A stretch of DNA of 21,945 bases, taken from positions 1 through 21,945 of the IMG/VR virus record IMGVR_UViG_3300042465_002491, one strand, 5' to 3'. Positions within the stretch are counted from its first letter, which is position 1; every line of letters starts with the position of its first letter. Source of the DNA: a virus. Position numbers and translations under genes: made by a program. Under the pieces are notes generated by a model. That model was not told where the DNA came from, did not search any database, and was given only the letters and a program-made list of their open reading frames with translations. Of this stretch, positions 2,388-5,809 are shown piece after piece.

Positions 2388-2761
2388 AGGTTATAGCTGT
2401 AGTAAAATTCTCCGTTCTCTTCTCTGACCGATACCGTGACCGTTTTCTTGACGATGCGTTGGGAATCCTTTTGTGAGCATTCAATCGGGATGCGTGTGCC
2501 GTCAAGATCGCCATAGACAAACCTTGGGTTCTGTGCTGGGCCTACGATGAACACTTCGATCTCAGTCTTGCTAGCCACAGGCTCGGCAAGGTGCTTCTTG
2601 AACATCCACATCGCATGGTCAGTCCAATAGATCGTCGCTCCGTTCTTATCCCAGTGAACGCCCTTGATTAGGAACTCATCACGAAATGCTTTTGCCTCGG
2701 CTGGTTTTACTTCCAACTTCTCGACAATGTCTCCTTGCTTCCAGCAGTTAATATCCACCAT
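2384..2761 (-). CDS. Hypothetical protein between terminase and portal
   Basis: This 125-residue protein is of unknown function. The start overlaps the last 14 nt of the large terminase gene in another frame and is preceded by AAGGA at very close spacing. The stop overlaps the portal start (ATGA). The N-terminus (residues 1-35) is predicted helical and charged, and the rest looks beta-rich with a YW/W-containing core. There is no membrane segment or signal peptide. Its place between TerL and portal suggests a head-assembly or packaging accessory role, but nothing in the sequence proves that. Confidence 0.75.
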   Translation of the reverse strand: MVDINCWKQGDIVEKLEVKPAEAKAFRDEFLIKGVHWDKNGATIYWTDHAMWMFKKHLAEPVASKTEIEVFIVGPAQNPRFVYGDLDGTRIPIECSQKDSQRIVKKTVTVSVREENGEFYYSYNL

Positions 2762-5276
2762 TTCCTTGTTTTGTTATTTGTGATTTTGTAGCGTCAACGT
2801 GATCCAAGTCAGCAATGGCAGCATAACGCAGAACGTCAATAGGATCTTTCCATGCTTCTTTAAGTCCTTGATCTCCAGTGTATTCAGCAAGTGCGCGAAT
2901 GATATTCTCACAGTCTTGCGAGATGTAAAAGTGCGGGCGGTTTACTGAATCCAATGGCTTGCTGGTATCGTAGCTCATCTTACTGATCAACGCCTGTAGT
3001 CCTTCTTCAATATCAAGACCAGATGCTGGATTGCAGATGATTTCCATCTCAGCTAAGTCTTCGATAATCGAGGAAGCACCATCAGATGCTTGATACCTAG
3101 CAGCACCTAGCCTAGAGTCGATCAATCTGTCAAATATCTCTTCACCCTCTTCGTAGTTTTGAATCAGTTCGACGTAATCACGGATGCCATAGCCAAGACC
3201 CTTTGCCGCTTCACCAGCGACCCACTTGCCGCTCTTCCACTCAGCCCAGTCACCAACATCCACGCTAGGCCACTCCCGATAGACGTAGTATGTTCCAGTC
3301 TCGTCAACCGCAACCCAGCACATGAACCAGTTCTTTGCACCAGCAGGGTCAATAATCTGATACCGTGTGATGTTCTCCGTAGGAATCTTGTCGTTGGAAA
3401 TGACGTTGACCGCAGTGTTGAACTTAGGGAATTTGGTCGCCTGAGACTTCACAGGGACTCCGTAAGCACGAATGAGGATCTCCTCCCGTGTCCTGCCTTC
3501 AAGAGCCTCCTTGATACGCTCATAGCCTCCAAATGGGTTATCCTGAGAGTGGAAGTAGTGGATGCTGGCATTGCGCTTCTTTGACCTCTGGATGTATGGC
3601 ACAAGCTCACCCTTGAGCAGTTCCGCAGGTCTAGATTCCACGATGGATGCCCCGTCAAGATACTCTTTAATGACCTCAGTCCAACCGTCGATAGGAGTAA
3701 ACGTGACCAACATCTTGGCATCTCTCGTAGCTAATCGAAACCTGAGCGTATTGATCAATTCTGGGCCTAGCAAGTATTCGTCGAGCCATACGCCGATATT
3801 GTGCCACACGGGTGATCTGCTTCCAAGTTCTGCACCTTCCAGAATGGTTGGGTTATTCTGATACTGAGAATACGTTTTGAAAATAATCTGGGAACCGTTA
3901 GGAAGGATCAAACTGCCGTCAGTAAATCCGTTCTTTTTCGTGTAGCTGATGTAAGCACCCGCAGATGTTTGCTTGGTCTTTAGTTCCGCTGGTAGCCAAT
4001 CATACACGGCACTCTGTTGCTGACGGATAGATACCTCGGACGTTTGAGCAAAACAAAAGATCTCAGAGTTTGGGTTTTCTACTGCCGCACGGACAATGGA
4101 GAATGCCCCCCACTGGGTTTTGCCCGAGTTTTTCTGCAAGATGTTTCCAATGAAGTAGTTACCAGTTTCAGGAACTTCAATATCCCAAATCTCGCTTACT
4201 TGTTTATCATTAACCTTGACAACAATCGTTTCTTTGGGTTGAATGAGCGCACATGAGAACAATCTTAGAACACATTGTATCGGGCGACGAGCTAAAGGAA
4301 CTGATCGCACAAGGCAAAACACTGCAAGAAATTTCCGACCTAGTACTTGAAAGATGCGGGCAGCGGTGGTCAACGGCTGGGGTTTCAAAGCTCTGTAAGA
4401 AACATAAGATTCCAATGCCTCGGAGTGGTCCTCGTAGCGGATCTCTTCATAAGGGTTGGAAAGGTGGGAGGACCCTGAATAAGGACGGCTATGTAGAGAT
4501 CTACTCTCTTGGTCACCCGAATGCAAAGAAACACACCCATTATATTCTGGAGCATCGTCTGGTGATGGAGGAACAGTTGGGTCGGTTCTTACTAAAGACG
4601 GAAGTTGTCCATCACAAAAACGGCGTGAAGACTGACAATCGTCCAGAGAATCTAGAAGTCTTTGAATCCAACGCAAAGCATTTAGCCGTAACCTTGAAAG
4701 GGCAGGTCCCACAATGGAGTGAGGAAGGAAAAAAGAGAATGCGTGATGGCCAGAAGAACAAGAATCCAATGACTCTTTCTCCAGAACTGAGACTACGCCG
4801 CCAATGCCTATGTCTTTTACGGAACGCCATCCAAAAGGAGTTGAAACTTGGTGCTCCGCCGAACACTGAAACGAGTCACCGTTTCCTAGAAGGACTTGGT
4901 ATGTCTTGGCAACAGTCTTTACAAATGGTCGTAGAGCACGGCATTGAATCTGTTTTTCCCCGTCCCAAGCTAGCACATGAAACTCAGAAGTAATTTCTGA
5001 AACAGGGGTGCTTTTCTTAGCAACTGGATCATAGATCTCCTGTTCTGGTGCTAAGCAACGGTTGCCTCCAAGTGCCACAATCTCAGTGACTTCCGACAAT
5101 TGTTCTTCAGCCTTGCTCCAGTGAGGTAGACGGAATCCGTAGCGGAATGGATCTTTTTCAGCGTTCTCAATCGCCTCGTGATAGATCTGGTGAAGGTGAA
5201 CCAAATCCTCTGGTTCCATCTCTGCAATCTCATCCTCGGAGGGAGGAGTCAGAATCTGGTGGGAACGCCACTTCAT
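2748..5276 (-). CDS. terL: Terminase large subunit interrupted by an intein
   Basis: This 842-residue precursor is the ATP-driven DNA packaging motor and headful nuclease. After removal of residues 74-383 (intein) it would be 532 residues, normal for TerL. The spliced Walker A reads GGNR/SGKT. Walker B is VWLDE, followed by the coupling motif LVTFTP. The C-terminal RNase H-like nuclease has acidic residues in IIDPAG, RLIDSR and PIDVLRYAA. The start overlaps the TerS stop (ATGA), so the two subunits are coupled. No working motor can form before splicing because the P-loop itself is split. An antisense HNH gene lies within the intein-coding part. The TerL assignment is very secure. Confidence 0.95.
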   Translation of the reverse strand: MKWRSHQILTPPSEDEIAEMEPEDLVHLHQIYHEAIENAEKDPFRYGFRLPHWSKAEEQLSEVTEIVALGGNRCLAPEQEIYDPVAKKSTPVSEITSEFHVLAWDGEKQIQCRALRPFVKTVAKTYQVLLGNGDSFQCSAEHQVSTPFGWRSVKDIGIGGVVSVLEKESLDSCSSGHHAFSFFLPHSIVGPALSRLRLNALRWIQRLLDSLDDCQSSRRFCDGQLPSLVRTDPTVPPSPDDAPEYNGCVSLHSGDQESRSLHSRPYSGSSHLSNPYEEIRYEDHSEALESYVSYRALKPQPLTTAARIFQVLGRKFLAVFCLVRSVPLARRPIQCVLRLFSCALIQPKETIVVKVNDKQVSEIWDIEVPETGNYFIGNILQKNSGKTQWGAFSIVRAAVENPNSEIFCFAQTSEVSIRQQQSAVYDWLPAELKTKQTSAGAYISYTKKNGFTDGSLILPNGSQIIFKTYSQYQNNPTILEGAELGSRSPVWHNIGVWLDEYLLGPELINTLRFRLATRDAKMLVTFTPIDGWTEVIKEYLDGASIVESRPAELLKGELVPYIQRSKKRNASIHYFHSQDNPFGGYERIKEALEGRTREEILIRAYGVPVKSQATKFPKFNTAVNVISNDKIPTENITRYQIIDPAGAKNWFMCWVAVDETGTYYVYREWPSVDVGDWAEWKSGKWVAGEAAKGLGYGIRDYVELIQNYEEGEEIFDRLIDSRLGAARYQASDGASSIIEDLAEMEIICNPASGLDIEEGLQALISKMSYDTSKPLDSVNRPHFYISQDCENIIRALAEYTGDQGLKEAWKDPIDVLRYAAIADLDHVDATKSQITKQGNGGY
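4216..4244 (+). promoter_or_regulatory. Sigma70-like promoter for the antisense HNH gene
   Basis: A perfect TTGACA (4216-4221), a 17-nt spacer and TTGAAT (4239-4244, 4 of 6 matches to TATAAT) lie just before the HNH start at 4253. Transcription would begin near the ATG and give a leaderless or almost leaderless mRNA. The element is inside sequence that codes, on the other strand, for the intein C-terminal splicing block. The -10 match is weak, so this is a proposal only. Confidence 0.45.
4253..4993 (+). CDS. HNH homing endonuclease encoded antisense inside the intein
   Basis: This 246-residue protein is probably the DNA endonuclease that would spread the intein by cutting intein-free terL genes. 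Residues about 12-54 look like a helix-turn-helix segment. Residues about 73-137 form an HNH domain: EHRLVMEEQLGR (100-111), VVHHKNG (118-124) and DNRPENLEVF (128-137), with H120/H121, N129 and N133 as likely active-site residues. A basic tail (150-180) follows. Residues about 174-246 lie antisense to the intein's N-terminal splicing blocks. The frames are offset so that the wobble base of the intein codon faces position 2 of the HNH codon. The gene is intact from ATG to TAA, which argues that it is active. Confidence 0.88.
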   Translation: MRTILEHIVSGDELKELIAQGKTLQEISDLVLERCGQRWSTAGVSKLCKKHKIPMPRSGPRSGSLHKGWKGGRTLNKDGYVEIYSLGHPNAKKHTHYILEHRLVMEEQLGRFLLKTEVVHHKNGVKTDNRPENLEVFESNAKHLAVTLKGQVPQWSEEGKKRMRDGQKNKNPMTLSPELRLRRQCLCLLRNAIQKELKLGAPPNTETSHRFLEGLGMSWQQSLQMVVEHGIESVFPRPKLAHETQK

Positions 5277-5809
5277 GGTACGTCGATGATGACAGTTGAT
5301 GCCCGTGATGCGATCTTCGCCTTAGCCTGTGCAATCATAATGGCTGCATCCTCGATAGATGCTCCCTTGCGATGCTCAATCACCACACCAGCCATACCAG
5401 CGAGCTGCGTAGCCTTATCAGTCATAATGCCGACCGTTAACGCCAGTCTGTCAGGGGAGATGTTCTTCAGTTGATCTGGATCATCGGCAAGTTGTTCTGC
5501 TTTCTGGAATAGCAAGTCAGTGTATTCCTCCGCAGCAATTGCGTATTTACGCGAAAAGTCTTTGCGCTTAGTTTCGAGAGTGTCCTCATGCCTCCATTCA
5601 AGCTCCCTGACGGTCTTCCTATCGATCCCAGTCTCTCTGGCTATAGCAGAGTAGCTTTTGCCCTGTGCAAGCCCCCAGAGAGCCTTTGCGGCCCCTTGTG
5701 GGTTCCAGTATTCAACTCGCTTGCGATCACCATGAGCCTTAGCCCTGTCCAATACTTCTTGGAACCATTCATTGCTTGATGGATCAGCGAGCTTTTCAAT
5801 ATTCGGCAT
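5273..5809 (-). CDS. terS: Terminase small subunit-like protein
   Basis: This 178-residue protein lies directly upstream of TerL, and its stop overlaps the TerL start (ATGA). A helix-turn-helix is visible at about residues 50-78 (KSYSAIARETGIDRKTVREL), as in small terminases that recognise the packaging site. The rest is helical, fitting the oligomerisation core. The C-terminal AIMIAQAKAKIASR segment is a further helix. The call rests on the helix-turn-helix, the size and the position, since TerS sequences diverge widely. Its role would be to bind phage DNA and load the TerL motor. Confidence 0.82.
   Translation of the reverse strand: MPNIEKLADPSSNEWFQEVLDRAKAHGDRKRVEYWNPQGAAKALWGLAQGKSYSAIARETGIDRKTVRELEWRHEDTLETKRKDFSRKYAIAAEEYTDLLFQKAEQLADDPDQLKNISPDRLALTVGIMTDKATQLAGMAGVVIEHRKGASIEDAAIMIAQAKAKIASRASTVIIDVP

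Follow-up and report, generated by a model that had tools for sequence, protein, structure and literature searches.

An intein in a phage terminase gene with a probable homing endonuclease gene on the opposite strand

Intein biology usually treats the endonuclease as a domain fused to the splicing protein. The locus described here raises the question whether a splicing protein and its endonuclease can be encoded by two strands of the same DNA. It lies in the window analysed, i.e., the whole stretch of 21,945 bases from an IMG/VR virus record, and is, with high probability, a mobile intein that interrupts the terminase (TerL) within its Walker A motif and has its homing endonuclease encoded by a separate, opposite-strand gene. 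The features are as follows, in window coordinates:

2748-5276, minus strand: TerL precursor ORF of 842 aa (N-extein, intein and C-extein), assigned from a weak Terminase_6N match, synteny and relatives
5058-5276, minus strand: N-extein of 73 aa, with C-terminal GGNR as first half of Walker A
4128-5057, minus strand: intein of 310 aa, from C1 to N310
5019-5057, minus strand: block A region, intein aa 1-13, CLAPEQEIYDPVA, C1 invariant in 35 inteins
4839-4895, minus strand: block B region, intein aa 55-73, with the invariant His69
4773-4994, minus strand: N-terminal splicing half, intein aa 22-95, opposite the HNH C-terminus, constrained in both frames
4254-4772, minus strand: antisense linker, intein aa 96-268, largely of low model confidence and absent from mini-inteins
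4128-4190, minus strand: blocks F and G, intein aa 290-310, with Asp292 and Asn310
4253-4993, plus strand: HNH endonuclease gene of 246 aa, ORF intact
4541-4687, plus strand: HNH catalytic core, HNH aa 97-145, with family match and invariant residues
4202-4223, plus strand: conserved block before the HNH start, with TTGACA at 4216-4221, showing slowed synonymous change
2751-4127, minus strand: C-extein of 459 aa, with N-terminal SGKT as second half of Walker A

The insertion is in frame and splits the Walker A motif of TerL (GGNR/C...KN/SGKT), with Ser as the +1 residue of the window intein; the HNH gene starts 125 nt from the C-splice junction. The preliminary description of this DNA had proposed a TerL intein with splicing blocks at both ends and an intact HNH gene antisense to its centre, and both were confirmed. 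Its further claim, that the end of the HNH gene lies antisense to the N-terminal splicing blocks, holds for block B, since HNH codons ~173-246 are antisense to intein aa 22-95, but not for block A (aa 1-13), which, like blocks F and G, lies outside the HNH gene.

The splicing domain was compared across 35 inteins, in which C1, the block B His69 and N310 are invariant, block F Asp292 is present in 90% or more (it is Cys in phage PHS3) and the +1 residue of the other inteins is S, T or C. The clade of the window is unusual at two positions: the penultimate residue is Lys (QKN), while most other clades have His, and block B reads SAEH instead of TxxH, and therefore its splicing could be slow. A penultimate His is not strictly required in known inteins. 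In the AlphaFold2 model, intein aa 1-90 and ~276-310 have block-mean pLDDT of 84-97, and most of aa 96-229 falls below 50; the splicing parts are predicted to adopt the Hint fold, and the linker looks disordered. Intein splicing domains are the top Foldseek matches of this model (RecA intein, E=2.5e-6), and a profile of the 35 inteins matches solved inteins, namely DnaB inteins, at E=6e-17. The Pfam Intein_splicing model scores above its cut-off in relatives L120 and L189 and below it in the window. Window positions 3900-5300 gave no Rfam match at E<=1, and on this ground a group I intron was rejected.

The protein encoded on the other strand matches HNH_3 (PF13392) with 39.8 bits against a cut-off of 24.8, and its core includes invariant residues. 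Its model has a mean pLDDT of 89, including the C-terminal helices encoded opposite block B. The best structural match is I-HmuI, an enzyme that resides in a group I intron, and it is weak (E=0.27), as is the I-HmuI profile match. The HNH core is shared with I-HmuI-type homing endonucleases (1u3e), whereas the match outside the core is weak.

Is the open frame opposite the HNH gene a matter of chance or of coding? The preliminary description had stressed that the splicing frame stays open across the HNH gene, at a chance of 1 in 100,000; the openness stands, with 0 stops, and the figure applies to equal base use. When the HNH protein and its codon use were kept fixed, i.e., synonymous codons were shuffled within each HNH gene, 7.3 antisense stops were expected in the window, and none of 2000 shuffles reached zero. 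Stronger evidence than this single count comes from conservation, since the intein frame is likewise free of stops in each of the 22 most closely related full-length elements (74-98% DNA identity). Shuffled HNH genes have a mean of 4-11 splicing-frame stops each, which sums to ~180 over 24 representatives against 0 observed, the representatives being related and hence not 24 independent tests. HNH genes outside the arrangement behave differently: nearly all of the relatives from bacterial genomes (GTDB) have stops, mostly several, in the frame equivalent to the splicing frame, and in five phage HNH genes that do not lie in inteins the count is 2-17. It might be argued that the antisense frame is open merely as a consequence of HNH codon use, devoid of coding meaning in the splicing frame, as base composition alone can yield long antisense ORFs in some genes and a few ORFs in other phases are also long here. 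Given ~180 expected stops and none seen, free-standing HNH relatives closed in the splicing phase and conserved intein halves, this explanation retains practically no probability and is already refuted by the stop counts and controls, unless the controls are biased. A chance antisense ORF is likewise ruled out by the codon shuffles, the free-standing HNH controls and the conservation. An assembly artefact was also rejected, because the arrangement is common to many contigs from different samples and to isolated phages.

The arrangement recurs widely. HNH queries and intein queries of IMG/VR retrieved largely identical sets of contigs, and L017 is the only one of the 22 closest full-length relatives whose HNH is not intact. 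A wider HNH search of IMG/VR gave 80 + 17 loci, and in 97/97 the HNH lies antisense to a long host-gene ORF, the relative phase of the two being identical at every locus where it was computed (five loci whose HNH match spans a stop were read by hand, and five contigs come from the closest-relative search). The host ORFs form ~30 sequence clusters, and every cluster shows an insertion in the P-loop together with the end motifs of inteins. In most clades the HNH start is 122-125 nt from the C-splice junction. Nine isolated phages carry the arrangement, namely eight Pectobacterium/Dickeya phages of the Ymer genus and Pseudoalteromonas phage PHS3, and so do the GTDB bacterial contigs L144-L147 and L156. 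On bacterial contigs, antisense-HNH inteins occur also outside terminase, i.e., in an SNF2-like helicase (L146, L147) and in another large P-loop protein with the motif GDG/TGVGKG (L156). The layout is thus common to a family of about a hundred relatives, from viruses and isolated phages to a few bacterial genomes, and the conservation of the opposite-strand HNH frame in related inteins, on which the first proposal depended, is borne out by the 97 IMG/VR loci, the nine phages and several bacterial contigs. The tree would allow a single origin of all the antisense HNHs.

The extent of the overlap differs between clades. The HNH runs through block B in the window's clade, L110, L132 and the Ymer group, and ends before it in L084-L109, L113-L122, L130, L131 and L144, and therefore the overlap with the splicing blocks is variable. 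HNH homologues ending before these blocks had been named as evidence against the proposal; they do exist, which makes the block-B overlap clade-specific, but the antisense arrangement is general. In L083, L105, L106 and L111 a broken HNH was considered and rejected, as the ORF merely ends earlier; the only truly broken HNH is that of L017/L063, which are one contig.

In the overlap, HNH codon position 3 coincides with intein codon position 2, and vice versa. Changes were counted on the tree of the window's clade only, and the count was repeated without L017; sites are not fully independent, so the p-values of the wobble rates are to be read loosely. Intein wobble positions show 3.74 changes per site outside the overlap and 1.47 opposite block B (p ~1e-8), and HNH wobble positions 1.79 over the linker and 0.66 opposite block B (p ~1e-8). 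Both rates drop opposite block B, and therefore the bases in this part are under constraint from both proteins. Over the linker it is the HNH wobble that changes fastest (1.79 vs 0.68 and 0.61, p=3e-15), so that selection in that part acts mainly on the HNH, and otherwise against stops. In the window's clade selection is thus seen on both strands opposite the N-terminal splicing half, and mainly on the HNH over the linker. The suggestion that the antisense peptide serves only as a linker agrees with the low confidence of the model over most of aa 96-229, with the HNH-like substitutions and with mini-inteins that have no linker.

The element behaves as an optional insertion. At the GGNR-SGKT site 65/80 of the closest TerL relatives are uninterrupted, two of them with 98-99% C-extein identity to the window, and the site is also uninterrupted in Escherichia phage KW1E_UTAR, the best cultured match to the Ymer C-extein outside the Ymer genus. 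Four intein types occur at this site among these TerL relatives, and in L140 and L141 the intein DNA is 91% identical, while the exteins are only 54% and 67% identical. Sporadic distribution together with lateral transfer into the same site, by which homing endonucleases are recognised, is therefore what the sequences indicate. Loss states were found as well. In L017 the HNH has stops from codon 178 on, and the intein frame is open. An HNH-blind census with two mini-intein queries, which reaches near relatives only and leaves two further matches uncounted, gave 35 inteins, all at this one site: 24 mini (130-136 aa) and 11 full (295-315 aa). All 11 full inteins have the antisense HNH, and the 24 mini-inteins have an HNH on neither strand, one of them keeping an antisense relic. 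A sense-frame HNH was found in none of the 35, which sets them apart from canonical inteins with fused endonuclease. A single 549-bp indel separates the mini-intein L270 from the full L272, and around it their DNA is 86% identical; L270 keeps the HNH C-terminus and stop on its opposite strand, a relic that points to deletion as the origin of the mini-intein. Intein-free alleles, laterally moved inteins, the decayed HNH of L017 and mini-inteins together fit a homing cycle.

Could the HNH gene be something other than a homing enzyme, or the intein something other than functional? HNH proteins beside terminase genes are known to work in DNA packaging, and an HNH gene placed within terL might likewise encode a packaging partner of the terminase; this is unlikely, as 65 of the 80 close TerL relatives do without the element, terL is kept in the one phage with a broken HNH, and relatives reside also in helicase-like genes. 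That the HNH frame was active in the past and now persists as a fossil, maintained only by the opposite-strand intein, is very unlikely. Such decay is visible in L017 and in the relic of L270, but nearly all full-length members have an intact HNH, and the fast HNH wobble over the linker argues for selection on the HNH protein there. Even less probable is a dead or slow relic intein, with the HNH being a free-standing gene that invaded terL and the frame being kept open only for TerL read-through. The unusual penultimate Lys, the SAEH motif and linker residues that track HNH selection would suit it; against it stand the invariant C1, His69 and N310 and the strongly constrained splicing halves, and, because the Walker A motif is interrupted, splicing is necessary if TerL is to work.

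For the mobile intein with an opposite-strand homing endonuclease the following mechanism can be proposed. TerL would be translated with the intein inside, and the Hint domain (intein aa 1-95 and 270-310) would excise itself, ligating GGNR to SGKT. The HNH enzyme, presumably made from the other strand, would cut or nick intein-free terL at the P-loop, and repair would then copy the whole 930-bp element. The antisense reading of most of the HNH gene would need only to lack stops, for TerL read-through, thus forming a linker at the position of the canonical in-frame endonuclease. Later the HNH decays or is deleted, leaving mini-inteins, and these states of loss are evident from the comparison of relatives.

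Which known systems does it resemble? TerL inteins are known in the ATPase domain of mycobacteriophage terminases (PMC5050341), and Hint-Hop TerL inteins were described in crAss-like phages (PMC7886860). Canonical mobile TerL inteins likewise have Hint splicing blocks, an insertion in the terminase ATPase domain (P-loop here) and a homing-type distribution, but in canonical mobile inteins the endonuclease is fused in frame, and that of the window has a gene of its own on the other strand. Nuclear group I introns carry antisense homing endonuclease genes, e.g., I-DsqI (PMC9548176). These introns resemble the proposed element in having the endonuclease gene opposite the host gene, within a self-removing element, and in the cutting of the intron-less site. 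Their carrier is an RNA intron, and therefore the opposite strand need not code for protein and no dual coding is needed. The ShiLan domain, a hidden HNH in a phage DNA methylase described in 2025 (PMC11855218), is a distant tblastn relative of the window HNH; its gene also overlaps the host frame and is sporadically distributed, but it lies on the same strand in another frame and has no splicing domain, unlike the opposite-strand HNH and Hint fold of the window. A DNA methylase (N6_N4_Mtase) in L153:1367-4333 (minus strand) has an HNH near 3001-3264 (plus strand) antisense to an insertion; this insertion has no obvious splicing blocks and is an opposite-strand counterpart to the ShiLan domain. 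In the Dehalococcoidales contig L151:75-3587, a 1171-aa ORF has two HNH-like stretches in the sense frame.

The fractured genes of Dassa 2009 are reportedly split inteins with an interposed free-standing endonuclease. There too the endonuclease gene is apart from the intein frame, but the intein is split, whereas the window intein is unbroken, its frame running along the strand antisense to the HNH gene. An account of inteins whose endonuclease lies on the opposite strand was not found in the literature covered, which was partial and did not include a preprint on actinobacteriophage inteins of 'non-canonical architecture' (10.1101/2025.01.02.630785), where similar cases could be present; the paper on the Ymer genus mentions neither intein nor HNH. 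The earlier remark that no well-described case was known thus agrees with the literature covered, and because this coverage is partial, the novelty is probable, not certain. We consider it likely that these elements represent an undescribed, widespread class of mobile inteins with opposite-strand endonuclease and own control signals within the intein, which has spread through P-loop ATPase genes in phages and in bacteria, and in which the same DNA encodes a nuclease and, on the complementary strand, a self-splicing domain. With the two functions on opposite strands, their expression at different times and levels would be possible. In several clades the same bases encode both a part of the HNH and the N-terminal splicing half, within a family that is conserved and can be aligned. 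This offers a natural system in which to study long antisense gene overlaps of prokaryotes and their viruses, as well as the way in which a selfish gene is tied to an essential gene. Since isolated phages with the element exist, the mechanism is testable now. Annotation is affected as well. Ymer-genus phages (L046-L049) have their TerL listed as 'hypothetical protein' and carry no annotation for the antisense HNH. The PHS3 record (L050, KX912252.1, 1700-3826) has a TerL labelled as truncated, and the N-terminal part and intein of this TerL lie opposite the annotated HNH gene.

What may control the HNH gene? The block of ~20 bp before the HNH start is common to the window's clade and the L070 family, the inteins of which are ~37% identical. 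Intein wobble is slowed in it (1.4 vs 4.55, p=4e-4, the block having been picked after seeing the alignment), and TTGACA occurs in 9/27 representatives against 1.6 expected. Taken over all members, full promoter scores show no enrichment (Fisher p=0.12), and a clear sigma-70 promoter with ribosome site upstream of the HNH was rejected, as neither was found consistently among members. The block is only suggestive of a possible control element. An ORF of 79 aa (window 4017-4256, plus strand) lies antisense to terL, and its TGA overlaps the HNH start (ATGA), which could be chance.
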